DNA from: Candidatus Acetatifactor stercoripullorum
GTDB lineage: Bacteria > Bacillota > Clostridia > Lachnospirales > Lachnospiraceae
Direction: 5' to 3'
Assembly (NCBI GenBank): GCA_019114005.1
Contig: DXGH01000041.1
Span: 1-64,000 of the forward strand
Length of the DNA: 64,000 nucleotides
Numbering within the stretch: position 1 is the first letter of the stretch; each line of letters starts with the position of its first letter. The notes beneath the pieces were generated by a model that was not told where the DNA came from, did no database searches, and saw only the letters and a list, made by a program, of their open reading frames with translations. Made by a program: the position numbers and the translations under genes. Positions 42,441 through 58,289 of this stretch are shown in pieces.

Positions 42441-45400
42441 TTGTTCCAGGTGGCAAATGGCCAAAGGAAGAGTATTTCTGCCAGCTCCTGGGGAAGGAAC
42501 AAAAAGCTGGACGAAATAGAGGAGCATTTTGGCGAGGCGGAGGAAAGCGCCAAAACCATAGAGGCAGGAACCTTGCAGAAGCACAAGAATAAAGTGGCGC
42601 AATATGGGGCGTATTCTGAAATGACCATGGAAAACCCCTGGAATACGGCGTCCGGCACCAATCCTAAAAGGCTGGAAGCGGCCATAGGGGAGTATGAAGC
42701 CTTCGGAGAAAAGCTGCGGGAGATGAAGTCCTGCATTCTGGCCATCGACCAGGCCGCCATGGAGCCCTACGAATATCCCGACAGCGTATATGACACCTCA
42801 GACATCGACCCGGCGGACTATGAGACGGAGGAAGCCTATAACGAGGCGGTGCAATCCCAGATCGCCTCCCAGAAAAGCGGCTATGACAACGAGAAGAAAG
42901 AGGAATTTGAGGGTGCCAAGGACGCTTTGCGGGAGTCCCTGACAGGAAGAATCAAGGCATTCAGCGATACCAGCGCAAAGTACGCTTCCGCTATGGAAAC
43001 CTATGAAAATAATTATAAGAAATATGACAGACTGCTGCGGGAAACCCTGTGCAAGCTGAATAACCTTCTGTGCCCGGTGGCAGAAAGCGCCTCAGAGCTC
43101 ACCGATGGATGGCATTTTTCCTTTAACTGGCTGGATTCCCACAGCGGGACACTGGCGGAAAATGCCATAGATTCCATAAACGATGTCCAAGCTCAGATGG
43201 AGAAGCTCAAAGAAGCTACAGTAGCCGCAGAGAGGAAAATTAAGAACTATCAGGATAATTATCTGGAGAGTGCCGGACAGGATGAGTTTTCCGCCTCCAT
43301 GCAGGCTTCCATCGAAGAGATCGCAAATCAGTTTAATACTGAGGATCTGAAAGAAATCACTGAACAGATTCAGGCGGGAATCAACTATATGTCAAGCGAA
43401 GGAAATCCTGTGGGCGTCCTCAAGGCCATAGAATCCATAAAGCTCTCAGGCGTAAGCCTTGTAAAGGAATCCTATTACAAGGTGATGACCGTGGACAAAA
43501 CAGAGCGTCTTTTGGAACAGCTGACAAAGGCCTACAGAGGAAGCGGGACCTTTAACGCTTACAGCGCAGCCGATCCGGAGACAAGCTATCTGGGCCGGGA
43601 GGCCGCTGCGTTTGATACAGCCTATGAAAATCAGTTTGCCCAAAGCGTGCTGTTTAACGTATGCAGCGATCCGGGGAATTTATACAATAAATATAACACC
43701 ACAAGCACCTGCTATTTGAAAAAGGTGGGAGAAAAGGGAATGACCACTGCGGACGGCAATCATTATAATATTCCTGCGTTTTATTTTTATCTCATCACCG
43801 TATTCAGTGCCTCCGCTGACGTTGATCCCTCACAGCCTACGGAGGACAGCATCAAGGATTTTCAGGAGCAGGCCCAGGACAGCACAGAGGAGGACAATGT
43901 AAACAGCACAACCTTTTCTTATGATATGGGCCTCTTTACGGAGGTTCCCTCCGACGGCACAAGCGGAGAGGGAGCCATAGGCAAGAAGGACGACGACGGT
44001 CTGTTTGGCTTTTTCAACAATGCGGCCAGTACCTTTCAGCAAATCTTTCAGGCTCTGGGCAATCTGAATCCGGAAAACGCAGTGGATTCTCTGCTGGTGA
44101 CGGAATATGTGCTGAATGATTTTTCCTCCTATATGGACTGGGTGGCCTATACGGAGGGGACGGACAACTTCCCTGAAGGAAGCAAGGATTATCCCCGCCA
44201 GACCTACAGCAATGTGGAGATCAATGCGGAAAACAACGCCATGTTCGGCTGTGAGATCGAGTATATCCTTTACGGAAGCAAGGGCCAGAACGAAACAAAG
44301 TTTCTCTGGTTTACGGTAAAGGAAGGGGCGGGGCCGGAAATCAATGTAAATCAGGCCAAGGCCAATATCTTTGCCCTCCGCCTGATGTTTAACATGGTAT
44401 ATGCCCTGACGGACAGCGAGATCGACTACCAGACGCTGCCTCCGGCCATGTCCATTCAGGCCGCCACCGGGGGCGTGTTTCCCTACCAGGTGGCCCAGAC
44501 GGTGATGAAGCTCTGCCTGGCGCTTGCGGAATCCAACTATGATCTGGAGCGGATTATGGATGGGAAAAAGGTGGAGCTGGTCAAGAGCGATGAAACCTGG
44601 AAATTTAGTTTGGGCGGAATGGTGGACCTGGCCAAGGATTACGTGGCGGAGGAGGTGAAGAATGCCGGGGAAGAGGTGATTTCTGAATTAAACACATCCA
44701 TTCAGGAAGCATTGGATTATACGACGGAAAATGCAACTAATATTGTCAGAGGTTTAGAAGATAATATGATTTCTGTTGTGGATAATGTGGTAAACGGTAG
44801 TGTGGATGCAGTGACCCAGTGTTTCAACACTTCTCTGGAAATGTACTATCAGGAGATGCTTACAAAGGGGACGGAGTACAGCAGACAGGAGCTATTGGCT
44901 CGGTGCGAGGAGAGTGTATCGACGTATCTGGCTGAAAGCGGCATGGAGGGAGCGGCGGCAGAACTTTTGCAAAATGATTTGATGGGCCAACTTAGAGGAA
45001 TGCTTGCAGATGGAGGAAGCATTGATCTGCATTTTGAGGCATTGGAGGAGGAACTCCGGCGAATAGATTTGAACAAGGAAGCGCTAGCGCAAAACTATAC
45101 GGACTTTATGAGACAGGTATCGAAGTCTACGGAGGACGCCATTGGAGCTGTGGAGAATCAGATTAACGCGACCATTTCATTGGTTGCAGGGGAGATTGTA
45201 GCTGATCTGCAAGGCACTGTCAGCGAGGCCTTGGAGTCCCAGGTAGACAACGCCACGGAAAAGATTTCGGAGGCCATTAACAGCAAGCTGGACGCCTATT
45301 TCCCTTCGTCCTCCATAGGAAACCAGGCAAAGGGAGTGGGGAAAACCTCCTCCTCAGCACTTAGCAGCGCCTTTAATATGGGCTACGAGGACTATTTAAG

Positions 45401-45680
45401 GGTATTTCTGATTATCAAGCTGTTAAGCGACGAGTCCGATATGGCGGTAACCCGCATCGGGGATGTGATCCAGATCAATGTGAATGAAGGGCTGAATGCC
45501 TATGAGGTAGAACACCCTAAGAAGGGGAACTTCCGCATGGCAGAGGCCAACACCTATTTGGAGATCAATGCCAGGATTCAGGTGAAGCCGTTATTGATTT
45601 CCCAGGATTGGTTTGAGGGGTGGCTGGGAGAAAAAATAGAATATCTCTCGTATGATTACCATACGATTGCAGGATATTAA
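42441..45680 (+). CDS. Large DUF5702-like protein, N-terminus apparently lost
   Basis: The open frame encodes 1079 residues, rich in Glu, Ala, Ser and predicted coiled coil (for example near residues 260-310 and 770-960). The end (YEDYLRVFLIIKLLSDESD, then MAVTRIGDVIQIN) resembles the C-terminus of DUF5702 proteins, envelope-associated proteins of Lachnospiraceae that normally start with a membrane helix and follow Tad-pilus genes. Here there is no signal or helix, no ribosome site, and an in-frame TAA 16 bases before the TTG at 42441. The first ATG is at 42624. It may be a pseudogene with a long intact body or start internally. Two lipoprotein genes follow. Confidence 0.55.
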   Translation: MFQVANGQRKSISASSWGRNKKLDEIEEHFGEAEESAKTIEAGTLQKHKNKVAQYGAYSEMTMENPWNTASGTNPKRLEAAIGEYEAFGEKLREMKSCILAIDQAAMEPYEYPDSVYDTSDIDPADYETEEAYNEAVQSQIASQKSGYDNEKKEEFEGAKDALRESLTGRIKAFSDTSAKYASAMETYENNYKKYDRLLRETLCKLNNLLCPVAESASELTDGWHFSFNWLDSHSGTLAENAIDSINDVQAQMEKLKEATVAAERKIKNYQDNYLESAGQDEFSASMQASIEEIANQFNTEDLKEITEQIQAGINYMSSEGNPVGVLKAIESIKLSGVSLVKESYYKVMTVDKTERLLEQLTKAYRGSGTFNAYSAADPETSYLGREAAAFDTAYENQFAQSVLFNVCSDPGNLYNKYNTTSTCYLKKVGEKGMTTADGNHYNIPAFYFYLITVFSASADVDPSQPTEDSIKDFQEQAQDSTEEDNVNSTTFSYDMGLFTEVPSDGTSGEGAIGKKDDDGLFGFFNNAASTFQQIFQALGNLNPENAVDSLLVTEYVLNDFSSYMDWVAYTEGTDNFPEGSKDYPRQTYSNVEINAENNAMFGCEIEYILYGSKGQNETKFLWFTVKEGAGPEINVNQAKANIFALRLMFNMVYALTDSEIDYQTLPPAMSIQAATGGVFPYQVAQTVMKLCLALAESNYDLERIMDGKKVELVKSDETWKFSLGGMVDLAKDYVAEEVKNAGEEVISELNTSIQEALDYTTENATNIVRGLEDNMISVVDNVVNGSVDAVTQCFNTSLEMYYQEMLTKGTEYSRQELLARCEESVSTYLAESGMEGAAAELLQNDLMGQLRGMLADGGSIDLHFEALEEELRRIDLNKEALAQNYTDFMRQVSKSTEDAIGAVENQINATISLVAGEIVADLQGTVSEALESQVDNATEKISEAINSKLDAYFPSSSIGNQAKGVGKTSSSALSSAFNMGYEDYLRVFLIIKLLSDESDMAVTRIGDVIQINVNEGLNAYEVEHPKKGNFRMAEANTYLEINARIQVKPLLISQDWFEGWLGEKIEYLSYDYHTIAGY

Positions 45681-45702
45681 ATAAAAAATAAGGGAGAAAA
45701 AA

Positions 45703-46410
45703 ATGAAGAAAAAAGGATTATTGTTACTGGGAATGATGCTGCTGGCTGGGAGCCTGAGCGCCTGCCAGGGAACGGGGGAAGGCCAGGCCTCGGCTGTACA
45801 GGGAGGAAACGCCGTAACGGCGGAGACAGATGTGCAGACTTCCGGGGAGGCAGAAGAGGAAACAGATTACCCGGAGGGGCTGGATTATCTGTATACGGAG
45901 GAGCATTTTAATTTTTCGCTGAGACTGCCGGATGGAGAAAATAGTTCCAAAGGATTTGGGCACATAGCAAAAGAGGCCTATGGCAGCAGCTTTGACAGAG
46001 TGAACTGCGAACAAATTTTTGTGACCCAGTATTCTGGGGATGTGGGAGCAGAGGAGGAGCAGGAGCTGATTGACATGAGCCAGTACCATTCCTCGGCAGA
46101 TATTTTTCAAGTATTGAGCCCGCTAATTGAAGCACAATATTTTTCAGGACGTGCTTTTACAGAAATAAGTTATGATGTAGATATTTTAGAAACTACAACC
46201 ATAAATGGTTTTGAAATGACTAAATATGAGGGCCAAATATGTTATGTGGATAGTTTGGGAGAGATTATTTATCCTTTCGTAGCATATGGCATTGCGGGAA
46301 CCGAAACCCCGGTGCTGGTATGCTGTATAGATCGTACGGAAGATCAGAGCCGCCATGCAGACTGGGTGGACAAGATAGATGAGGTGGTGTCCACCTACAC
46401 GGAAAACTAG
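45703..46410 (+). CDS. Lipoprotein, tandem copy 1
   Basis: The 235-residue protein has a clear lipoprotein signal (MKKKGLLLLGMMLLAGSLSAC, split at the lipobox LSAC, Cys near residue 21), an acidic linker and a compact domain with ADIFQVLSPLIE and RHADWVDKIDEVVSTYTEN. I do not recognise the family. AGGGAGAAAAAA precedes ATG. The next gene is a close copy, with almost identical first 60 and last 35 residues but a diverged middle. Confidence 0.85.
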   Translation: MKKKGLLLLGMMLLAGSLSACQGTGEGQASAVQGGNAVTAETDVQTSGEAEEETDYPEGLDYLYTEEHFNFSLRLPDGENSSKGFGHIAKEAYGSSFDRVNCEQIFVTQYSGDVGAEEEQELIDMSQYHSSADIFQVLSPLIEAQYFSGRAFTEISYDVDILETTTINGFEMTKYEGQICYVDSLGEIIYPFVAYGIAGTETPVLVCCIDRTEDQSRHADWVDKIDEVVSTYTEN

Positions 46411-46421
46411 GCAAACTGACT

Positions 46422-46486
46422 GGCTGCCTGTCTGCATTTTCGGCTGCAGGAGCGCCGGAACCATACAGGAAGCAGGACAGGCAGCC
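46422..46486 (+). terminator. Hairpin after lipoprotein copy 1
   Basis: GGCTGCCTGTC at 46422-46432 pairs exactly with GACAGGCAGCC at 46476-46486. It lacks a T run. The whole spacer is part of the duplicated unit. Confidence 0.55.
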
Positions 46487-46534
46487 GGCAGGGAAAGGCT
46501 GGAACAGAGGGACAAGGGAGACAAAAGATAAAAA

Positions 46535-47242
46535 ATGAAGAAAAAAGGATTATTGTTACTGGGAATGATGCTGCTGGCTGGGAGCCTGAGCGCCTGCCAG
46601 GGAACGGAGGAAGGCCAGGCTTCGGCTGTACAGGGAGGAAACGCCGTAACGGCGGAGACAGATGTGCAGGTTTCCGGGGAGGCAGAGGAGGAAGCGGATT
46701 ATCCGGAGGGGCTGGACTATCTGTATACGGAAAACCACTTTGGATATTCCCTGAGACTGCCGGGTAGAGAAAACAGTACAGTGGGCTATGGGCATGTTGC
46801 AAAGGAGCAATATGAGGGAGGATTTAGGAGTGCAGCCTGCCTGAATGTGTTTGTAACCCAGTATTCCGGGGATGTGGGGGCAGAGGAGGAAAAGGAGCTG
46901 ATTGACATGAGCCAGTACCATTCCTCGGCGGACATTTTCCAGGTGCTGAGCCCATTGATTCAACACCAGTTTTTTTCGGGACTTAGTGTGAAAGAAATCA
47001 GTTATGATGTAGACATTCTGGAGACTACAACCATAAATGGTTTTGAGATGACAAAATTTGAAGGAGAAATGGATTATGTAGATGCCTGGGGAGAAATCAC
47101 TTATCCAATTGTAGCATACGGCATTGCAGGAACAGAGACCCCGGTGCTGGTTTGCTGTATAGACGAGACGGAAGAGCGGAGCCGCCATGCAGACTGGGTG
47201 GACAAAATAGACGAGGTGGTGTCCACCTACACGGAAAATTAG
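46535..47242 (+). CDS. Lipoprotein, tandem copy 2
   Basis: This 235-residue lipoprotein is a paralogue of the gene 832 bases upstream: identical signal peptide and lipobox LSAC, the same VTQYSGDVGAEEE and SQYHSSADIFQVLSPLI blocks, and the same C-terminus. The middle (about residues 68-110 and 140-190) differs most, as in surface proteins under diversifying selection. The downstream 125 bases are duplicated too. The function is unknown. Confidence 0.85.
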   Translation: MKKKGLLLLGMMLLAGSLSACQGTEEGQASAVQGGNAVTAETDVQVSGEAEEEADYPEGLDYLYTENHFGYSLRLPGRENSTVGYGHVAKEQYEGGFRSAACLNVFVTQYSGDVGAEEEKELIDMSQYHSSADIFQVLSPLIQHQFFSGLSVKEISYDVDILETTTINGFEMTKFEGEMDYVDAWGEITYPIVAYGIAGTETPVLVCCIDETEERSRHADWVDKIDEVVSTYTEN

Positions 47243-48190: not shown

Positions 48191-48904
48191 ATGAATATGG
48201 ATTATGAAAATGTTTTGCAAAGGCTGAAGGAAGAAAGGGTCAGAAATAATTTGTCCCAAAGGCAGATCAGCTATCAAATGCACATGATGCAAAGTCATTA
48301 CAGTAAGGCGGAGCTTGGAAAAAAGCGATTCACCTTCTATGAAATGCAGTGTCTGACGAATACGGAAATAGATATACAGTATATGTATACAGGCTTGCGG
48401 AGCACCAAAAAGTATAGAGAGTTTTTTGAGGGATGTACCTTTGAAGAAATCATCTGCTATATCAGCATCTTTTATTCCATGGCAGCCTGCCTGGGACGGG
48501 AGAATTCTGCAGGCAAATGGGGCAAGATATATAAGCGTATTGAATATATGAAATTTATTTTCATGACGGGAAGAGAGAACGACAATATTTTCTTCGCCAT
48601 CAGACAGCAGCTTGCGTATACACAGCATAAAATGGCAGAGCTTCTGGGTGTTGATATAAAGAAGCTCAGAGAGCTGGAAAATGGAAGAGTTCTTCCCGAC
48701 AGTGAGATGCTGTGGAAAATATATGATTTGTTTCATGTTCCTCCATCCATTATCCTGCGGGATGGCAAAGGACTGGCGCAGGAATTGTGTCTGCTTTTGG
48801 AAATATCTGGTGAAGAGGAAGGGGAAGCCATCTTCGCTTATTTGCAGGCAGGACAAAAGTGTTTAGGGGAAATTTGTGAAAAAGATTTTAATTTTAGAAG
48901 ATAA
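48191..48904 (+). CDS. Transcription regulator with two XRE-type HTH domains
   Basis: The 237-residue protein has an N-terminal helix-turn-helix of XRE type (LKEERVRNNLSQRQISYQMH) and a second one near residue 137 (IRQQLAYTQHKMAELLGV, IKKLRELENGRVLPDSEML). The middle is helical. Such a double arrangement is not common. Its 3' end overlaps the response-regulator gene by 29 bases, so it belongs to the same operon and may adjust the quorum-sensing response. Confidence 0.75.
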   Translation: MNMDYENVLQRLKEERVRNNLSQRQISYQMHMMQSHYSKAELGKKRFTFYEMQCLTNTEIDIQYMYTGLRSTKKYREFFEGCTFEEIICYISIFYSMAACLGRENSAGKWGKIYKRIEYMKFIFMTGRENDNIFFAIRQQLAYTQHKMAELLGVDIKKLRELENGRVLPDSEMLWKIYDLFHVPPSIILRDGKGLAQELCLLLEISGEEEGEAIFAYLQAGQKCLGEICEKDFNFRR

Positions 48905-49598
48905 TCAAAGTACGCTGCAGCATTTGGCCGGCATCGTGCAGAAAGCTGATACAAGGTGCGAGGTAATTGCACTGCATCGTATGAAGGATGCCTATCAATG
49001 TGCATTGGAAAGAGAGATTGATTTATTTATCATAGACATTATATTGGATACCAGAAGGCCGGGAGATTCTTCCGGTCTGCGGTTTGTGGACAGTATCCGG
49101 AAAATTGATAAATATGCCTTTACGCCAGTGCTGTTTGTCACCTCACTGGAGGACGCCAGATTTTATGCCTATGAAAAGCTGCATTGTTATCATTTTGTGG
49201 AAAAGCCCTTTGATGCGGAGAAGGTAAAGCGGATGGTGGAGCACTGCCTGAAATTTCCCGGACATCAGGAGAGCGATAAAACCCTGTACTTTCGAAAGGA
49301 CGGCATCGTCCTGGCCGTGGATAGAAGCGAAATTGTATATGCGGAATGCGAGAATCATACCATGTATATCCATACAAGCCGCAGTGATGTTTTGGCAATT
49401 CCTTATTTGACACTGAAAAGACTGCTGGATGAAGCAGACAGTCCGGATATGATTCAATGCAGCCGCAACACCATGATAAATAAGAAATTTATACATAATG
49501 TGGATATTACAAACAGAATGATACAGCTGCGCAATAACTATGGAAGAGTAGAGATTGGTTTGATGTATAAGAAATTATTGCGGGAAATTTTTAAGTAA
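48876..49598 (+). CDS. LytTR-family response regulator (AgrA-like)
   Basis: The 240-residue protein has a receiver domain (ILILEDNQ, phospho-acceptor Asp in LFIIDIILD, KPFDAEKV with the conserved Lys) and a C-terminal LytTR DNA-binding domain (IVYAECENHTMYIHT, MIQCSRNTMINKKFI). LytTR regulators of this size act in agr-type peptide signalling. It lies between the XRE regulator and the histidine kinase, and agrBD is about 3 kb downstream on the other strand. Confidence 0.93.
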   Translation: MKKILILEDNQSTLQHLAGIVQKADTRCEVIALHRMKDAYQCALEREIDLFIIDIILDTRRPGDSSGLRFVDSIRKIDKYAFTPVLFVTSLEDARFYAYEKLHCYHFVEKPFDAEKVKRMVEHCLKFPGHQESDKTLYFRKDGIVLAVDRSEIVYAECENHTMYIHTSRSDVLAIPYLTLKRLLDEADSPDMIQCSRNTMINKKFIHNVDITNRMIQLRNNYGRVEIGLMYKKLLREIFK

Positions 49599-50858
49599 AT
49601 GCTGCTGCGCCTTGTTCTAATAACAGAGATATTTTCGGTGATTATCTGCATTCACCGGATCTATGGAGTAAAGGTAAAATTTGATATGAAAACGGTCCTG
49701 TTATTTCTGGGACTTCTGATTGTTTTGGAAATAGTCAATACCTGTCAGGTGTCGAGACTGTTTTCACTGCTGGTCTATTTTCTTATTTTTCTCTATTGTG
49801 TGTTAAAATTTAAGAAATCCTTGTTTGAAACCATAATCAACAATGTGCTGTATCTTGTGGTGATGACACTGCTGCAGTTTGCCTGTCTTGTGCCTGCTGC
49901 AGTTGTTCTGCCTCAAAATGAGTATGGAAGAGGGCTTTTGGTGAATTGTGCGGTGCTGTTAATCTGTATTTTTGTGCTGCCGTCGTTGGGACTGTGCCGA
50001 TTTGCCGGATGGATAAGGAAAAAAGAGAAATTAATCTATCTATTATTAAGCGCAATTTTTATGGTTGTGATATTTATTTTGATGCAGGCAAAAATTTTTC
50101 ATGGTGTGCGGATAGATTCTTTTTTATTGCTAATTCCAATTATTGCAGTGACACTTGGATTGAAAAAATATTGGGACAAGAATTATAAGGGCAATACAGT
50201 GCCTGAAAAAGACGAATATCAAAATATAAATAGTGAAAATAAATACAACGAATTGCTTATTAAAATCAGAATGCGCCAGCATGAGATAAATAACCATATT
50301 ACGGCGGTGCTGTCCATGCATTATACGAATAAAACTTATGAAGAATTGGTCAGGGCTCAGGAAGAATATTTGGGCAAGGTGGCGGCAGAGAACAAATATA
50401 ACAAGCTCCTTATACTAGAAGACAGCATATTAACAGGATTCTTATATGGAAAGCTTACAGAATTGGAGGAGGAAGCGGAAATTACATATAAAATAGAAGT
50501 GGAATCTTTTCATACAGTAATACCGGCGTACTATATAATTCAGATGCTGGGAATTTTATTTGATAATGCAGTAGAGGCCGTGAAGGATAAGCAAGATACG
50601 ATCTCCAGGATACATTTTGAGATTAGAGAGGTAGGGACGGGATATGAGTATGAAGTGAGAAATCCCTTTCCCTATGTGCCTTATAATGAGATAGAAGAGT
50701 GGTTTGTCTTAGGACAAAGTACCAAAAGTATTGAAAGAGGAGTGGGATTATACCATTTGAAGTATTTATGTGAGGAATTGAAGTGTGATTTGATTTGCAG
50801 AAATATAATGGTGGAAAAAGATAATTGGATTTCTTTTGTCCTAAAAGTTAAAAAGTAA
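49599..50858 (+). CDS. AgrC-like sensor histidine kinase (GHKL type)
   Basis: The 419-residue protein has six to seven N-terminal membrane helices (residues 1-190), the receptor part of AgrC-like kinases, then a dimerisation helix with the phospho-acceptor His in IRMRQHEINNHITAV and a GHKL ATPase domain (LGILFDNAVEAV N box, GVGLYHLKYLCEEL G box). It would detect the Agr peptide and phosphorylate the LytTR regulator encoded directly upstream; ATG follows the previous stop at once. Confidence 0.92.
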   Translation: MLLRLVLITEIFSVIICIHRIYGVKVKFDMKTVLLFLGLLIVLEIVNTCQVSRLFSLLVYFLIFLYCVLKFKKSLFETIINNVLYLVVMTLLQFACLVPAAVVLPQNEYGRGLLVNCAVLLICIFVLPSLGLCRFAGWIRKKEKLIYLLLSAIFMVVIFILMQAKIFHGVRIDSFLLLIPIIAVTLGLKKYWDKNYKGNTVPEKDEYQNINSENKYNELLIKIRMRQHEINNHITAVLSMHYTNKTYEELVRAQEEYLGKVAAENKYNKLLILEDSILTGFLYGKLTELEEEAEITYKIEVESFHTVIPAYYIIQMLGILFDNAVEAVKDKQDTISRIHFEIREVGTGYEYEVRNPFPYVPYNEIEEWFVLGQSTKSIERGVGLYHLKYLCEELKCDLICRNIMVEKDNWISFVLKVKK

Positions 50859-50990: not shown

Positions 50991-51932
50991 ATGGAAGCAA
51001 ACAATATCTTCATTGAGAGATCAGACAGGGAAGAAATTCAGGCAAAAAGATTTGATTTTGATAGTTTGTTTGTTGATAAAACAGAGATTATAGAAATGCA
51101 CAACGACAATTCTATGGCTATATTGGGAAATAGTCTTGAGGTACTTCACTATATAAAGGATGGTTCTGTCGATCTGATATTTGCGGATGCACCATATAAC
51201 ATAGGAAAGAATTTTGGCAATAACCAGGATAAATGGAGCACCATTGAACAATATATTAATTGGTGTAAATGCTGGATTGATGAATGCATGAGAGTGCTTT
51301 CTTGCAATGGTACAATGTATTTTATGACAGCTACACAGCATATGGCGTATCTGGATGTTTATGTTTCCCAAAAATATAATGTACTATGCCGTATCGTGTG
51401 GTCCTATGACAGTTCAGGTGTACAGTCTAAAAAAATATTTGGTTCATTATATGAGCCCATTTTGATGATAAATAAAAACAGCAAGGCAAAATACACATTT
51501 AATCAACAAGCTATTTTGGTTGAAGCTAAAACTGGAGCACAAAGAAAGTTAATTGATTATAGAAAAGATCCGCCTAAGCCATATAATGCAGAGAAAATCC
51601 CAGGTAATGTTTGGAATTTTAATCGTGTTCGCTTTAAAATGGATGAATACGAAAACCACCCAACGCAAAAGCCAGAAGCGTTGTTGGAACGCATTATTAA
51701 GGCTTCGTCTAATGTTGGCGATGTTATTTTAGATCCATTTTCAGGCTCTTTTACTACCTCTGCAGTTGCTGCTCGTTTAGGAAGAATTGGCATTGGCATA
51801 GACATAAATGAAGAATATTTTGAGATAGGGCTTCGTCGCACGGGGATAGCAACGGAATTTAATGGAAAATTACTTGTAAAAGAGAAGAGGCGCAAGACAA
51901 AAGCAAAGTCAAAACATGCAAGAAGTCAGTGA
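50991..51932 (+). CDS. Type II DNA methyltransferase (N6_N4 family)
   Basis: The 313-residue enzyme has the catalytic motif IV as FADAPYNIG near residue 65, then a target-recognition part, then HPTQKPEALLERII and the AdoMet motif I DPFSGSFTTSAVA near 245. This order is that of beta-class amino-methyltransferases acting on adenine N6 or cytosine N4. DAPY replaces the usual DPPY. The gene is clearly AT-rich against its neighbours. It overlaps a putative endonuclease gene by 17 bases, so it is half of a restriction-modification pair. The recognition site is unknown. Confidence 0.9.
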   Translation: MEANNIFIERSDREEIQAKRFDFDSLFVDKTEIIEMHNDNSMAILGNSLEVLHYIKDGSVDLIFADAPYNIGKNFGNNQDKWSTIEQYINWCKCWIDECMRVLSCNGTMYFMTATQHMAYLDVYVSQKYNVLCRIVWSYDSSGVQSKKIFGSLYEPILMINKNSKAKYTFNQQAILVEAKTGAQRKLIDYRKDPPKPYNAEKIPGNVWNFNRVRFKMDEYENHPTQKPEALLERIIKASSNVGDVILDPFSGSFTTSAVAARLGRIGIGIDINEEYFEIGLRRTGIATEFNGKLLVKEKRRKTKAKSKHARSQ

Positions 51933-53022
51933 GGTGAAGATAACGGAAAAATTTGTATTAGAAATCTTAAAAGAAGATTTCCAGGATCAATATGCAGACA
52001 TCTATGGAAGTAGTTATTTGCTGCAATATCTTGATAAGAAAATGAAAGCAGTACATAAGGGGAGTAAGACAAGGAAGAGTCTTGCTAATATTTATGCAAT
52101 ATATGCCATACTGCATTTTTATCAAAGCGATTATTATGATAAACCTGATGTATATAGGCAATTTGGTGGTTATGATTATATGCAGTTGTTTCACTTTTAC
52201 CAGGGACTGTATGGGGGCAGTAAATTGCAAAACCACGCATTAAATTCTCGGGTGAATGGAGAATTCAGAAATAAGTTTCCTGATCTAAAAAATGATTTGA
52301 TTATCGCGAATAACGGCAAATATTTAATACATATTGATTATTTGTATGTCGGCCAATGTGACATAAGCAGAACTTGCTGCAAGGTGATAGAAAAATATAT
52401 AGAGTTACTTGCTGCCAAGGACCATAAATTAATTACTTACTTACAGGAAATGCAGGATTTAACAGATTATAGTGAAAAGAAAGAACGTATTTGCCAGCTG
52501 CTTTCAGAAGACGCCGAAGCGAGAATATTTGAAATAATAAGCTATTCTATTTTAAAAAATCATTATAAAAACACTAAAGTTTATTTTGGATATTCCTTAA
52601 GCAGCCTGCAGGAGGAGAAACTGCAGCTTTACAAAACAGGTCGGACTAATGCGAATGATGGAGGTATTGATTTTGTAATGCGTCCGGTGGGCCGTTTTTT
52701 TCAAGTTACGGAAGTTGATAATTACGATAAATATCTTTTGGATATAGATAAAGTAATGCACTTTCCGATTACGTTTGTTATAAGAACAAAAACTTCAAGA
52801 GAGAAAGTTTTAAATGAGCTGGAAGCATACATAGATGAACGTGCAAACGGTATGGTTGTGATTAGGGAGCGTTACCATAATGCAATTGAAGAAATCATAA
52901 CCATAAATGAACTTAATGAGTGGACAAATGAATTGAGTAATGATGATGTGGACAGTATTTTAAGAGATATTGACATCTATTACAGATTAGAGATGAACAT
53001 GGATATAGTGGATGACGATTAG
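51916..53022 (+). CDS. Putative type II restriction endonuclease
   Basis: The 368-residue protein has no family I can name with certainty. A possible PD-(D/E)xK core is present near residue 240: GRTNANDGGIDFVMRP followed by GRFFQVTEVDNYDKY, where GGID supplies the Asp and the usual ExK is changed to QVTEV. Overlap with the methyltransferase gene, similar AT-rich composition and lack of other functions make the cognate endonuclease the best guess. ATG at 51916 is used; GTG at 51933 region, after GTGAGG, is an alternative. Confidence 0.6.
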   Translation: MQEVSEVKITEKFVLEILKEDFQDQYADIYGSSYLLQYLDKKMKAVHKGSKTRKSLANIYAIYAILHFYQSDYYDKPDVYRQFGGYDYMQLFHFYQGLYGGSKLQNHALNSRVNGEFRNKFPDLKNDLIIANNGKYLIHIDYLYVGQCDISRTCCKVIEKYIELLAAKDHKLITYLQEMQDLTDYSEKKERICQLLSEDAEARIFEIISYSILKNHYKNTKVYFGYSLSSLQEEKLQLYKTGRTNANDGGIDFVMRPVGRFFQVTEVDNYDKYLLDIDKVMHFPITFVIRTKTSREKVLNELEAYIDERANGMVVIRERYHNAIEEIITINELNEWTNELSNDDVDSILRDIDIYYRLEMNMDIVDDD

Positions 53023-53032
53023 GATCATGATC

Positions 53033-53056
53033 AAGGGGCTGTATATACAGCCCCTT
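53033..53056. terminator. Terminator between restriction gene and agrD
   Basis: AAGGGGCTGTA and TACAGCCCCTT form a near-perfect palindrome between the two convergent transcripts, with CCCCTTTG on the + strand side. Confidence 0.7.
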
Positions 53057-53072
53057 TGACATAAAGAGTGAA

Positions 53073-53189
53073 TCATTCTTCTTCATTTTTTTCAGGAAAC
53101 GGATACTCCCCAAACAAAACAATACTAGAAAGATTAGTTTCTACCCACCAAACGAATGTCTCGATACAGTTCAGAACTGTAGGAATCAT
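53073..53189 (-). CDS. agrD: AgrD-like autoinducing peptide precursor with Ser instead of Cys
   Basis: The 38-residue peptide starts MIPTVLNCIETFVWWVET, an amphipathic leader, then NLSSIVLF and the acidic tail GEYPFPEKNEEE. In AgrD proteins the ring residue (usually Cys) is five residues before the cut site, followed by a tail like DEVEVPKE. Here the matching residue is Ser-22, with Ile-Val-Leu-Phe after it, so the product would be a lactone and not a thiolactone. The ATG overlaps the agrB stop (ATGA) and GGGGG stands 8 bases before it. The only Cys (8) is in the leader. Confidence 0.82.
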   Translation of the reverse strand: MIPTVLNCIETFVWWVETNLSSIVLFGEYPFPEKNEEE

Positions 53190-53740
53190 TTTGCACGTCC
53201 CCCTTTCTTTCGTATTTTCGCGGCAGACAGCTGCAGCGAATGCAATATAATGACCCAGAAACCGGCAGCGGTAAAGCTGCTTTGCGGCATTATACATAAA
53301 AACAGTGCGTAAAAAAATATGGTAAGACAGGTAAAGTCCCGAAACCTTTTTGAGGCGGCTGGAAGCGGGTCCGGCCTGTATTTTGAGGTTACGGGGCCGA
53401 TTCGACAGCATATCAAAAGTGAGCCTGCAAGAAGAAGCAGCTGAAGATACTTGGGCAGAAGAAGCTGCGGCAGTACCACAACGCACAGGCCAAGATAAAT
53501 GGTGGAGCCCAGCAGGCAGGCGGGATAAGTGTAAAAATGCAGTCCCCCGGTGGAACAGCGCAGCAGCATCATAATAAACAGCGCTGTAAAATACAGGGGC
53601 AGCTGATTACGGAACAGGATTCCCATAATCAGCATTTTACTCAGCTCTGAGCCAAGGGTTTTTGCTAAAAAAACTATCAATGACATTTGATAGCTGGTGA
53701 GATGATATTTTTCCTTTATTTGTCTTTTGATCGATTCCAT
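53186..53740 (-). CDS. agrB: AgrB-like peptide-processing membrane protease
   Basis: The 184-residue membrane protein cuts and cyclises AgrD. The family motifs are present: the basic start MESIKRQIKEKYHLTSYQ, RCSTGGLHFYTYPACLL with the catalytic His and Cys, and about five membrane helices. ATG at 53740 with GGGAG upstream gives the standard length; the longer frame adds an unusual N-terminus. It is translationally coupled to agrD. Confidence 0.93.
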   Translation of the reverse strand: MESIKRQIKEKYHLTSYQMSLIVFLAKTLGSELSKMLIMGILFRNQLPLYFTALFIMMLLRCSTGGLHFYTYPACLLGSTIYLGLCVVVLPQLLLPKYLQLLLLAGSLLICCRIGPVTSKYRPDPLPAASKRFRDFTCLTIFFYALFLCIMPQSSFTAAGFWVIILHSLQLSAAKIRKKGGRAK

Positions 53741-54038: not shown

Positions 54039-54362
54039 ATGTCAGATATGTGCATAGGGGAAAGAATCAGAAAATTGCGTGAAAGCAGACATTACACAAG
54101 GGAGGTTCTTGCGGAAAAAGCGGATATTTCTGCAAAATTTTTGTATGAAATAGAAACAGGCAAGAAGGGCTTCTCGGCGGAAACACTGTGTAAGATATCC
54201 AGAGCGCTGTGTGTGAGCTGTGATTTTATTATGCGGGGTGAGAAAGGGGAGCAAAGCGAAAATCAGGAGATTATCTATGTATTAGAGACGCTGGAGCCAA
54301 GGCAGGTCGAAAAAATACGAGATATATTAAGTGTTTTGACACAAATATGCGACGCGATATAA
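54039..54362 (+). CDS. XRE-family regulator
   Basis: The 107-residue protein is one helix-turn-helix domain (IGERIRKLRESRHYTREVLA, DISAKFLYEIETGKKGFSAE) with a short helical tail. TGGAGGAATAAT precedes ATG. It is divergent from agrBD and may regulate it. A terminator follows directly, so it is a single-gene transcript. Confidence 0.9.
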   Translation: MSDMCIGERIRKLRESRHYTREVLAEKADISAKFLYEIETGKKGFSAETLCKISRALCVSCDFIMRGEKGEQSENQEIIYVLETLEPRQVEKIRDILSVLTQICDAI

Positions 54363-54406: not shown

Positions 54407-54490
54407 AAAATCTCAGACAACGCCGATAGAATAGGAAATGTCTCTTGCCGCATATAAATTAGGGAGCAAATGTGGCAAAGCGGGATTAAA

Positions 54491-56254
54491 ATGAATCAGA
54501 AGCTGGAGGACATACTGAATTTGGCGTTGGAAACGCCTCAGGAGATCAGGGAACAGACGGAAACGCTGAACGTTGGATTTGACGGCGAAAGCAGAACCTG
54601 GGAGCTGATAGTCAAATACCATGGCAGCCTGGAGCGGCTTGCCGGACTTGGCGTGAAAGTGGAATATTTGATCGCTGGCTATGCCATACTGACTGTGCCG
54701 GAGGGCCTGGTGGATATGGTAGCCGATGTGGAAGAAATAGAATATGTGGAAAAGCCTAAGCGGTATTTTTACGCTGTGTCTGCTCCCGCGGATGGTTCCT
54801 GTCTGCCTCGTGCCACGCTTCAGGAGCCCTTTTTAACGGGGCGGGGCGTGCTGATAGCTGTTTTGGATTCCGGCATTGCGTATGAACGCAAAGATTTCCG
54901 AAAGGAAAACGGAGATACCCGGATTCGGTTTCTCTGGGATCAGACGCTGATGCCGGGGGAGGCCGGGGCGCCGCCGGAGGGATTTTCCATGGGGGTTGAG
55001 TTTGACCAGGAGAGAATTAACCGGGCGCTGCGGGAAACTGGAGAAGGAGAACGGTATGCTCTGGTTCCCAGCAGGGACGTAAACGGACATGGGACGGCGG
55101 TGGCAGGAATTGCCGCAGGCAGCGCCATTTTGGAGCAGGCATATAAAGGGGTTTCGCCGGAAGCGGAGCTTTTGGTGGTAAAGCTTGGCGCGCCAAATGA
55201 GCTCGGCTTTCCCAGAACAACGGAAATTATGCGAGGCGTCACTTATGCTTTGAGAAAGGCGATTCTTTTGGGCATGCCGCTGGTAATTAATTTAAGCTTT
55301 GGAAACAGCTACGGGGCCCATGACGGAAGCTCTTTAATGGAACGTTTTTTAGACAATGCAGCAGAAATCGGACGTACGGTTATCTGTGTGGGAAGTGGAA
55401 ACGAGGGCAGCTCCAGAGGACACGTTTCGGGAAATGTGGAGCAGGAGACTGCTGTGGAGCTGGCGGTAGGGGCCTACGAAACAGCGCTGAATATACAGCT
55501 GTGGAAGCACTACAGCGACCGTTACCGTATCCGCCTGCGCTCTCCCGGAGGCCGGGAGCAGGAGCTGCCGGAGGTCGTGGAGGCCGGAAAATATACCTTG
55601 CAGATGGAACAGACCCGGATTCTTGTGTACATGGGAGAGCCAACCCCCTATGCGGTGGCCCAGGAAATTTATCTGGATATGATTCCCCTTGCGGGCCCTT
55701 ACATTAACAGCGGTATCTGGACCATCCTCATAGAGCCTGTCAAAGTGGTGACGGGACAGTATTATCTGTACTTGCCAAGCAGTGCCATTCGAAATGAAAG
55801 CACGGGCTTTTACAGAGCGGCGCCTCAGGTTACGCTGACCATTCCCTCCACGGCAGCCAAGGTGATTACTGTGGGGGCCTATGACAGCACCTATGATACC
55901 TATGCGGATTTCTCCGGCAGGGGCTACGTAGACAGGCGGCGTACCATCGGGGTGGTTACGGCCGGTCTTACGAAGCCGGACCTGGCGGCTCCCGGCGTTG
56001 GGATTTTAGCCCCGGACATCTATGGCGGCTACACACCCTTTACGGGAACCTCCTTTGCGGCGCCCATTGTCTCCGGCAGTGCAGCGCTTTTGATGGAATG
56101 GGGCATTGTCCGGGGGAACGACGCTTTCCTGTATGGAGAAAAGGTAAAGGCGTATCTGCGAAGCGGAGCAAGGCCTGTAAGAGGAGAGGCGGAGTACCCC
56201 AATGACAGGGTTGGTTTTGGCGCTCTCTGCCTGGCGGACAGCCTGCCAGTTTGA
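54491..56254 (+). CDS. Subtilisin-like S8 peptidase, Csp-like
   Basis: The protein of about 587 residues is a subtilase with Asp in AVLDSGIAY, His in DVNGHGTAVAGIAAGSA and Ser in FTGTSFAAPIVSGSAA, so the triad looks complete. The N-terminal part (MNQKLEDILNLALETPQEIR, then a prodomain ending near residue 100) and the large jelly-roll insert between His and Ser are those of the clostridial Csp proteases that process the germination lytic enzyme SleC. There is no signal peptide. The ATG at 54491 is chosen to match the family start; an ATG 21 bases upstream is also possible. Confidence 0.85.
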   Translation: MNQKLEDILNLALETPQEIREQTETLNVGFDGESRTWELIVKYHGSLERLAGLGVKVEYLIAGYAILTVPEGLVDMVADVEEIEYVEKPKRYFYAVSAPADGSCLPRATLQEPFLTGRGVLIAVLDSGIAYERKDFRKENGDTRIRFLWDQTLMPGEAGAPPEGFSMGVEFDQERINRALRETGEGERYALVPSRDVNGHGTAVAGIAAGSAILEQAYKGVSPEAELLVVKLGAPNELGFPRTTEIMRGVTYALRKAILLGMPLVINLSFGNSYGAHDGSSLMERFLDNAAEIGRTVICVGSGNEGSSRGHVSGNVEQETAVELAVGAYETALNIQLWKHYSDRYRIRLRSPGGREQELPEVVEAGKYTLQMEQTRILVYMGEPTPYAVAQEIYLDMIPLAGPYINSGIWTILIEPVKVVTGQYYLYLPSSAIRNESTGFYRAAPQVTLTIPSTAAKVITVGAYDSTYDTYADFSGRGYVDRRRTIGVVTAGLTKPDLAAPGVGILAPDIYGGYTPFTGTSFAAPIVSGSAALLMEWGIVRGNDAFLYGEKVKAYLRSGARPVRGEAEYPNDRVGFGALCLADSLPV

Positions 56255-56407: not shown

Positions 56408-57373
56408 ATGAGCGAAACATTAAAGCAGGTACTGGATGACTATTATAAGACGATAAAAGAGGGCCGGGCTAACTATCGGGCATGTTATAATAGTTTTTTA
56501 GAATACTGCGACAAGTATATAAATGTACCATTATTTGAAATGTCCAAAGCGCTTACCAAAATAGAAATCAAGTATGCCTGTAAATATTATTTTGAAAAAA
56601 GTAAAAAGGCAACAACTATTGAAGCGATTCAAAGATATTTGACAGCAATAGACCAATTTTATAAGTATATTAAAAAACAGGGTATTACATGGGAGCATTT
56701 GGAAGGTGGATGCAGAAACAAACAGATCGTGCATGATATATGTGTAAGCTTAAATGACGAATTAACGCAAAAAATATATTTACCATTTGATGAAGAAAAG
56801 GCAGTAAAGATTGCGGAAGAACAAATAGCGCTATTGAATAGAGATAACTTTTTTCAATTGGGACAATCGGTTATATACCGGATGCTCAGCACATATGGGT
56901 TTAAAGAAAAGGTCATTACTAATTTTAAAATGGAGGATTTTAGTAAACGGGAAGAAACGCTGCTGATAAGTGGCGAGGAAGAGCAGGAACTGCGTATAAA
57001 GCTTGATGAGGATATATTGGCTGATTTAGTAAGGTATTGTGAACTGCATAAGTATCCTGATAGAACATATTTGTTTACAAAAAGCAATGGAACACAACTG
57101 ACACCTAATAGCATATTTATAACCCTAAAAGAAAGAATGAAAAAATTAGATGTCTCTAATTTTACTCCTACGACAGTTGCATTACAAGGAGTTGTTAATT
57201 TGATTGAAAAGGGGTTAACGTTACAGGAAATAAAAATTTTGACAAAATTTGAAACACAAAAAATAGAGGATGTTTCGAAATATCTATTAACAGATGAAGA
57301 TGCTGAAAAAGTAATCAATGAAAAACTTCAAAAGGAAATTGTACAGACGCAGAAAAAACTTGAGCTGGGGTGA
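56408..57373 (+). CDS. Tyrosine-recombinase-like protein without catalytic residues
   Basis: The 321-residue protein has a SAM-like N-terminal domain (residues 1-100, with YLTAIDQFYKYIKKQGI) and a C-terminal part with the shape of a phage-integrase domain. The first box reads MLSTYGFKEKVITNFKMEDF where GLRxxEL is expected (Arg to Lys), and the HxLR box reads TPTTVALQ, so His and Arg are lost; only a Tyr in EDVSKYL may remain. It is therefore probably a DNA-binding protein and not a recombinase. It is AT-rich and lies 4 bases before a HipA-like kinase gene. Confidence 0.65.
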   Translation: MSETLKQVLDDYYKTIKEGRANYRACYNSFLEYCDKYINVPLFEMSKALTKIEIKYACKYYFEKSKKATTIEAIQRYLTAIDQFYKYIKKQGITWEHLEGGCRNKQIVHDICVSLNDELTQKIYLPFDEEKAVKIAEEQIALLNRDNFFQLGQSVIYRMLSTYGFKEKVITNFKMEDFSKREETLLISGEEEQELRIKLDEDILADLVRYCELHKYPDRTYLFTKSNGTQLTPNSIFITLKERMKKLDVSNFTPTTVALQGVVNLIEKGLTLQEIKILTKFETQKIEDVSKYLLTDEDAEKVINEKLQKEIVQTQKKLELG

Positions 57374-57377
57374 TATT

Positions 57378-58289
57378 TTGGAATTAATAAATTTTAATGA
57401 TTTTCAGCAAAATCAAAGAATGTATGGTGGAACAGCAGGCCGAAAAATGGGAATTACTTATAATGGGAAAGATTACCTTTTAAAATTTCCCGGCAATTTA
57501 AAAGAGCAGAAGATGAAAAATATTAATCTTAGTTATTCCAATAGTCCTATCTGCGAATATATTGGTTCAAAGATATATGAATTGGTTGAACTGCCTGTTC
57601 ACAATACGATTTTAGGAATAAGAAATGGGAAAATTGTAGTAGCCTGTGAAGATTTTTTGCAAGATGGAGACAGGCTCTATGAGTTTGATAAGATAAAAGT
57701 TACCTTTGAACCCCATTTTTTAGATTCTAATGGGAATGAAACAAATGGTGTCGGTGTAGATTTGTATGAAATCATGATGACGCTGCAAGAACATCCGTTT
57801 TTGCAGAATATTCCAGGAGTAAAGGAACATTTTTGGAATATGTTTGTAATGGATGCCCTAATTGGAAATACAGATCGCAATAATAGCAACTGGGGAATTA
57901 TTTTGCGTAAAGATGGTTCAAAGGAAATAGCTCCTGTTTATGATAATGGTAATTGTTTGAATAGTAAATGGGATGATGAAAAGATGCAGATAGTTATGGA
58001 TGATGATGGCAAAATGGAAGCGGAGGCATATAAGGCGCGCAGATGTATTTATGAATTACAAGGAAAGAGGGTTAATCCTTACCATATAATAGAAAGTATG
58101 GAATATCAGGAGTGTTCAGATGCGGTACGAAACCTGACCCCTAAAATAGAAAGTTGTATGAGCAGAATATGGCTGATAATAGAAGAAATTCCAGTTTTGT
58201 CAGAAATACAAAAGCGGTTCTTTACACGGATTATTCAATGGAGATATGAAAAAGTATTACTGCCGGTATACCAAGAACTGATGAAATAA
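57378..58289 (+). CDS. HipA/CtkA-like serine/threonine kinase
   Basis: The protein of about 303 residues has an N-terminal KDYLLKFPGN (likely ATP-binding Lys) and a catalytic region MDALIGNTDRNNSNWGII, matching the NxDRHxxN loop of HipA kinases, then APVYDNGNCL with the Mg-binding Asp. The compact size and lack of the HipA N-subdomain resemble CtkA. HipA kinases act as toxins that phosphorylate translation factors. TTG at 57378 is chosen because GGGG lies 7 bases before it; it starts 4 bases after the recombinase-like gene. Confidence 0.78.
   Translation: MELINFNDFQQNQRMYGGTAGRKMGITYNGKDYLLKFPGNLKEQKMKNINLSYSNSPICEYIGSKIYELVELPVHNTILGIRNGKIVVACEDFLQDGDRLYEFDKIKVTFEPHFLDSNGNETNGVGVDLYEIMMTLQEHPFLQNIPGVKEHFWNMFVMDALIGNTDRNNSNWGIILRKDGSKEIAPVYDNGNCLNSKWDDEKMQIVMDDDGKMEAEAYKARRCIYELQGKRVNPYHIIESMEYQECSDAVRNLTPKIESCMSRIWLIIEEIPVLSEIQKRFFTRIIQWRYEKVLLPVYQELMK

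Follow-up and report, generated by a model that had tools for sequence, protein, structure and literature searches.

The window analysed here, a stretch of 64,000 nucleotides from Candidatus Acetatifactor stercoripullorum (contig DXGH01000041.1, positions 1 to 64,000), contains what we read, with a probability of about 0.8, as a complete agr-type quorum-sensing locus whose predicted signal is closed through a serine. Textbook agr signals are thiolactones; AgrB cleaves its precursor, AgrD, at the C-terminal residue of the future ring and holds the peptide as an acyl-enzyme at the catalytic Cys, which the ring nucleophile then attacks. Because a Ser stands at the place of the ring Cys in the window, and is kept in the closest relatives, the signal is probably a lactone and not a thiolactone. 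Genes, catalytic and ring residues, their conservation and the synteny of the locus are the observations that carry this reading.

The agrB gene (53186..53740, minus strand; ATG at 53740, stop codon at 53186-53188) encodes a protein of 184 residues that matches the Pfam profile PF04647 at 59.5-59.7 bits, above the curated cut-off of 23, while the other AgrB of this genome scores 104.5 bits. The catalytic His and Cys named in the original prediction were located as His68 (codon 53537-53539) and Cys75 (codon 53516-53518; both on the minus strand) within the motif GGLHFYTYPAC, that is GGLHx6C, and both residues are unchanged across 7 aligned AgrBs as well as across 17. An AlphaFold model of the protein has seven helices and a mean pLDDT of 91.3; no relative was returned by a PDB sequence search at E <= 1, nor any match by a fold search with the model at E <= 0.001.

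The start codon of agrD (53073..53189, minus strand) overlaps the agrB stop by 4 nt (ATGA), and the gene encodes a 38-residue precursor, MIPTVLNCIETFVWWVETNLSSIVLFGEYPFPEKNEEE. The codons of the predicted ring, Ser22-Ile-Val-Leu-Phe26, occupy positions 53112..53126 (minus strand), Ser22 being encoded by AGT. The protein conforms to the AgrD-type pattern of an amphipathic leader, a five-residue ring and a tail in which [QE] occupies +6 and Pro +10; its leader has a hydrophobic moment of 0.37 vs 0.16 for shuffled sequences (p 0.012), a value that was weaker in 2 of the 4 AgrDs to which this test was applied (p 0.08 and 0.21). The 38 residues matched no model in Pfam or NCBIfam, and the ORF is assigned as an AgrD-like precursor from its position, motif and homologues. 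We rejected a chance ORF, because the six closest AgrB relatives, at the same place, and 13 database proteins carry homologues. The overlap and these homologues bear out the agrB-coupled AgrD that had been proposed, whereas its description as Cys-less holds for the predicted signal part only, the whole precursor having a Cys-8 in the leader that is not conserved among the aligned relatives. Since the ring nucleophile would be Ser-22, and not Cys, we did not file this AgrD among the thiolactone autoinducing peptides (AIPs); a conserved Ser at the ring start and a ring devoid of Cys, the sequence marks of a Ser-lactone AIP, are both present. Between the stop codons of agrD and of a restriction endonuclease gene lies a perfect inverted repeat, GGGGCTGTATATACAGCCCC (53035..53054), which looks terminator-like by eye.

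Searching 101 genomes of the genus for the window-type AgrB revealed a patchy distribution, with the protein in only 7 (the genome itself and six others at E <= 2e-15). These six AgrBs are 34-55% identical to that of the window, and all six are accompanied, at the same place, by a homologous small ORF with Ser-22. The six AgrDs are 32-53% identical to the window AgrD, and Ser-22, Gly-27, Glu-28 and Pro-32 are invariant in all seven. This alignment with relatives, which had been put forward as a check, thus found the Ser at the ring start conserved in close relatives, and the placing of Ser-22 where a ring Cys is expected stands. A profile of the seven AgrDs retrieved 13 database proteins, 13/13 with Ser, which are not all independent, because P0001 is identical to one row of the query and P0003 differs from the window AgrD by one tail residue. 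Among 26 AgrB-related loci in named genomes, retrieved with patterns from Ser-type AgrBs, the ring starts with Ser in 24 and with Cys in 1 (L038, Tissierellia), the last (L032, at a contig end) being uncalled.

In the AgrB tree, the window belongs to a clade (SH-aLRT 99 and 96) in which 18/18 callable AgrDs carry this Ser amid varying neighbours, loci lacking an AgrD call having been left out of the tree and hence of this count. The system of Parablautia muri D42-62 (L033) falls into the same clade, and L129, near to it, has Cys at the ring start. The Ser codon is AGY, one base away from the Cys codon TGY, in 15/15 members read (the window and 14 others of the 18), and TCT in Clostridium intestinale (L043), which lies outside the clade. 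In two loci (L037, 871-1434; L041, 5001-5576) the AgrD just downstream of agrB has only 27 residues, 11 of which form the leader (MFNWGCRFDFV-SIVFF-GEPKHPFLEKK); no longer leader fits, because a stop codon lies two codons ahead of the Met.

On the plus strand, convergent with agrBD, the window encodes an agrC-like GHKL sensor kinase (49599..50858; 419 residues; HATPase_c_5; H-box MRQHEINNH) and an agrA-like response regulator (48876..49598; Response_reg and LytTR DNA-binding domain). The N-terminal ~190 residues of the kinase are hydrophobic by hydropathy, and its only two PDB matches are both S. aureus AgrC (4bxi and 6e52), at weak E values of 0.0015 and 0.0033. An XRE-family regulator (48191..48904, plus strand; HTH_19/HTH_3) lies upstream of agrA and overlaps it, and a small XRE-family regulator (54039..54362, plus strand; HTH_3) is divergent from agrB. 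When the window proteins were compared by tblastn with the 26 related loci, (i) the kinase and the LytTR regulator were found a short way downstream of agrBD, on the opposite strand, in 25, the exception (L032) stopping at its contig end, (ii) the 54039-54362 XRE gene was found divergent upstream of agrB in 17, two of the other 9 having only ~210 bases upstream, and (iii) the 48191-48904 XRE gene was found beyond the LytTR regulator in 16. From this synteny we derive a recurring unit, xre and agrB-agrD converging on agrC-agrA-xre; an agr system is recognised by a linked AgrC-type kinase and LytTR regulator, and the window has both. The original prediction, confined to 53073..53740, covers agrBD and omits agrC, agrA and the two recurrent XRE genes of the locus.

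Between agrD and agrC the window holds a type II restriction-modification (R-M) pair (50991..53022, plus strand; methyltransferase 50991-51932, endonuclease 51916-53022, the latter with a PADLOC E of 4e-81). None of the 26 related loci gave a tblastn match to this pair at E <= 1e-4, and the pair is an insertion that does not belong to the signal system; the gap between agrD and agrC is ~60 bases in the nearest locus (L018, uncultured Acetatifactor, 75% AgrB identity). A scan for AgrA-type direct repeats (9-mers, at least 8 matches, spacing 20-23) found none ahead of the window agrB; of 17 relatives (300 bases upstream being taken for L022, L023 and L025), 7 had scattered ones, with no common motif. 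Further out, a CspB-like S8 protease of the germination-protease family (54470-56254), present in L018 too, lies beside the divergent XRE gene; at 56408-58289 a Xer-like recombinase ORF precedes a HipA-like ORF that matches the PADLOC candidate PDC-M03A. At 42441-47242, a gene for a DUF5702 protein precedes two similar tandem lipoprotein-like genes of 235 residues, for which a Pfam search gave no match.

The cleavage site, the lactone bond, export, sensing and the target genes all belong to a model that we infer as follows. AgrB (Cys75/His68) would cleave AgrD after Phe26, removing the acidic tail GEYPFPEKNEEE, and would hold the cleaved peptide as a thioester, on which attack by the Ser-22 hydroxyl would yield the five-residue lactone Ser-Ile-Val-Leu-Phe. 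Once exported, the peptide would lose its leader, either completely or down to a short exocyclic tail, and the convergent AgrC-like kinase would sense the peptide and phosphorylate the LytTR regulator.

Several described systems resemble the one predicted here. For the C. thermocellum AgrD Clo1313_2818, a cyclic Ser-lactone pentapeptide is reported from targeted LC-MS/MS against a synthetic standard (PMC5322536). As in that account, a Ser would close a five-residue ring ending in Phe, and the limits predicted for the window ring fit because the spacing S0, F+4, P+10 equals that of S25, F29 and P35 in C. thermocellum; this agreement, and the Ser kept in close relatives, support the lactone ring Ser22-Phe26 of the original prediction. 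Unlike the window, C. thermocellum has, according to its authors, no agr operon nearby, and Tyr, not Gly, follows its ring. The AIP of Staphylococcus intermedius/pseudintermedius, RIPT[STGFF], is described as a Ser lactone (PMC12312760, PMC3673130, PMC10482373) and would share with the window signal both its production by AgrB and its five-residue ring, but it is encoded in an agrBDCA operon, whereas agrBD and agrAC are convergent in the window and accompanied by XRE genes. Enterococcus faecalis FsrD/GBAP, given as QN[SPNIFGQWM], is likewise described as a Ser lactone with an AgrB-type maturase and AgrC/AgrA homologues, and differs in its nine-residue ring and in the position of fsrD inside fsrB. 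The Clostridioides difficile agr2 AgrD has Ser at the ring start, as in the window, so far as its listing as NSA[SSWVA] goes (PMC12312760, Table 1); by eye, the AgrDs of L056 and L061 resemble it, with QP tails and AgrBs in another part of the tree than that of the window. Ser-lactone AIPs are thus already known, and the window adds a putative one, in a group of AgrDs that is without a curated Pfam or NCBIfam model. The second agrBD pair of the same genome (L001, contig C3) is of the Cys type, DCAIILYQPKRP; like that of the window it has an adjoining kinase-like ORF, with a LytTR match 1.6 kb away, and it differs in its Cys ring, its QPKRP tail and its distant AgrB. The genome therefore offers a natural comparison, one Cys-type beside one Ser-type pair, of what AgrB needs for ring closure by Ser.

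The strongest competitor of an exported lactone, possible though rather doubtful, starts from the same AgrB-made Ser lactone and has the leader cut right before Ser-22, an O-to-N acyl shift then giving a stable head-to-tail cyclo(SIVLF). Such a form could arise from the window because exotail-free lactones can rearrange: within 22 h at pH 7.0, a Listeria AIP lactone analogue without exotail is reported to have undergone 48% O-to-N rearrangement and 36% hydrolysis (PMC11297923), and the C. thermocellum Ser pentapeptide is itself reported without an exotail (PMC5322536). However, the exotail is retained in the staphylococcal Ser AIP as described, and the residue before the Ser is not random, being Pro in 7/18 AgrDs of the clade, which would suit an exotail. 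We consider it improbable that AgrD is not cyclised at all, AgrB serving only as protease and exporter of a linear signal. Ser is indeed a weaker nucleophile than Cys, and S. aureus AgrB1 and AgrB2 are reported to be unable to process a Ser-AgrD (PMC10482373), for which reason the AgrB clade of the window is presumably adapted to Ser; yet C or S begins the ring in 167/183 AgrDs, which would be needless for a linear peptide, and the linear control peptide of C. thermocellum is described as inactive (PMC5322536).

Closure of a six-residue ring by Ser-21 instead of Ser-22 has still less in its favour: serines are adjacent in the AgrDs of the window and of L018, and rings of six residues have been mentioned in other clostridia, but position 21 reads S, I, V, P, P, P and I in the seven aligned AgrDs, in which Ser-22 is invariant, and for want of conservation Ser-21 was rejected as the ring residue. 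The least probable reading, to our mind, is that the locus lost its ring Cys and is now in decay. The low PF04647 score of its AgrB (59.5 bits) beside that of the second AgrB of the genome, the occurrence in 7 of the 101 genus genomes and the R-M insertion between agrD and agrC would all agree with decay; against it, the frames of agrA, agrC, agrB and agrD are open, the catalytic residues are kept, the Ser is conserved over the clade, and the near-identity of database cluster P0003 leaves a single tail residue changed. C and S predominate in the ring-start column, whereas drift would be less restricted, and this too makes decay of a ring Cys unlikely. With these alternatives weighed, we regard the observed agrBD pair as real and as probably part of a working lactone quorum-sensing system. 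Points that weigh against a lactone signal system are the reported failure of S. aureus AgrB with a Ser-AgrD, the scan that found no AgrA-type repeat in the window, the weaker leader moment of two AgrDs, the patchy distribution, the negative search for a curated AgrD model and the Cys at the ring start of L038 and L129.

To survey the ring start more widely, AgrDs were sought beside 252 AgrBs (some of them the same gene twice) with a motif matrix that ignored the ring-start column; its training set of 105 AgrDs overlaps in part with the sequences tested, the ring column did not enter the score, and a threshold of 12 was applied, the best antisense score being 10.6. Rows missed by the filters were set by eye (L003, L007, L020, L026, L031, L077, L085, L089, L108, L133 and L181), and 55 of the 252 loci are without an AgrD label. 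In 183 unique AgrDs the ring-start column holds C (n = 92), S (n = 75), K (n = 4), T (n = 3) or another residue (n = 9), which is not an unbiased frequency because the deliberately collected Ser clade is included; the entropy of this column is 1.6 bits, and that of the remaining ring positions 3.1-3.7 bits. That a masked column is mostly C or S argues that Ser replaces Cys as the nucleophile, and not at random. The GGxHx6C motif is kept in the AgrB of 75/75 Ser-type systems, and in 66/75 Ser-type AgrDs the stretch from -5 to +4 around the ring start is free of Cys. In several of the 9 rows with another residue, a C, S or T lies one or two positions to either side, so that their ring start may be shifted.

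The share of Ser was read in three samples. That of the phylum, taken outside the window's class, consisted of 90 loci from 90 genomes (the 30 best-scoring loci and 60 picked by hand from the matches listed, drawn from the 119 genomes, of 299 searched, in which PF04647 had a match), none scoring below 105 bits, low-scoring AgrBs such as the window's own (59.7 bits) being left out; the 80 called AgrDs have Cys (n = 44), Ser (n = 30), Thr (n = 3) or another residue (n = 3). The family sample (90 loci with scores of at least 86 bits, some sharing a genome; 28 uncalled) gave Cys in 41, Ser in 12, Ser with an adjacent Cys in 4 and another residue in 5 of 62 called, and the class sample (29 loci found with the Ser-type alignment A4; 13 uncalled) gave Ser in 8, Cys in 3 and another residue in 5 of 16. 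Ser precursors thus look common, as far as primary structure tells, in the sample taken. The view set out at first, of thiolactones as the rule and Ser lactones in a few species, does not fit the 30/80 of the phylum sample, although few Ser lactones have been verified chemically; thiolactones are described as more commonly reported in Clostridia (PMC5322536). Our literature search, a weak one mostly without subscription papers, met single Ser cases only and no census of AgrD ring residues. Lactones would escape methods based on trapping the thioester; if about 3 in 8 precursors are of the Ser type, as in the phylum sample, such methods would overlook part of peptide signalling in these bacteria.

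The AgrB trees, quick ones with SH-aLRT support only, comprised 177 rows labelled C, S, Ser-Cys or T, and changes were counted on the 170 rows with C or S. At least 21 Cys/Ser changes are needed on the tree, vs a mean of 55.4 and a minimum of 46 in 200 label shuffles, and 23 with a mixture model; independent Cys/Ser pairs on well-supported branches number 7 in the first tree and 9 in the mixture-model tree. Many deep branches are weak. From these counts and the all-Ser clade, the Cys/Ser state appears heritable yet repeatedly switched. A comparison of 1241 column/residue features over independent pairs pinpointed, among the features listed, no AgrB residue that tracks Ser, the 7 supported pairs being too few for a decisive test. 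Tentatively, and at slightly less than even odds, we would see in AgrB a nucleophile-tolerant family of macrocyclases, in which the Ser lactones of the phylum are not much fewer than the Cys thiolactones, switches have been many, Thr or a conserved Lys (the latter giving a lactam ring) is rarer, and the clade of the window is a long-lived Ser specialist.

The wider count of Ser precursors, together with AgrDs that have Lys in the ring-start column, is more surprising than the window system itself, and the literature searched, again mostly without subscription papers, held no report of either the Ser-precursor share or Lys-type AgrDs. Thr stands at the ring start in L198, L220 and L237 (AAAT-GFWS/GSNG/GNWS-YQPEVP), two of which fall next to a Ser-type AgrB in the tree. 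In the AgrDs of L064, L076, L096 and L115 the ring-start Ser is followed by Cys (e.g. NSA-SCIIS-YQPKAP), and either residue may close the ring. Lys was found in L157, L158, L161, L254, L255 and L257-L263, all from one genus of the window's class, and in L217, from another family. All 11 genomes of that genus have an AgrB, and the AgrDs called in 10 of the 11 all have Lys, none having been found at L256. The Lys-type AgrD is a candidate for a lactam signal or for a non-cyclised peptide; its motifs (GAASK-IFWL-YQPEN, GVLK-LIYF-YEPKE, GAAK-FWFY-FEPNE and GTTK-IVLF-YEPEE) vary in the residue before the Lys, which is S, A, L or T.
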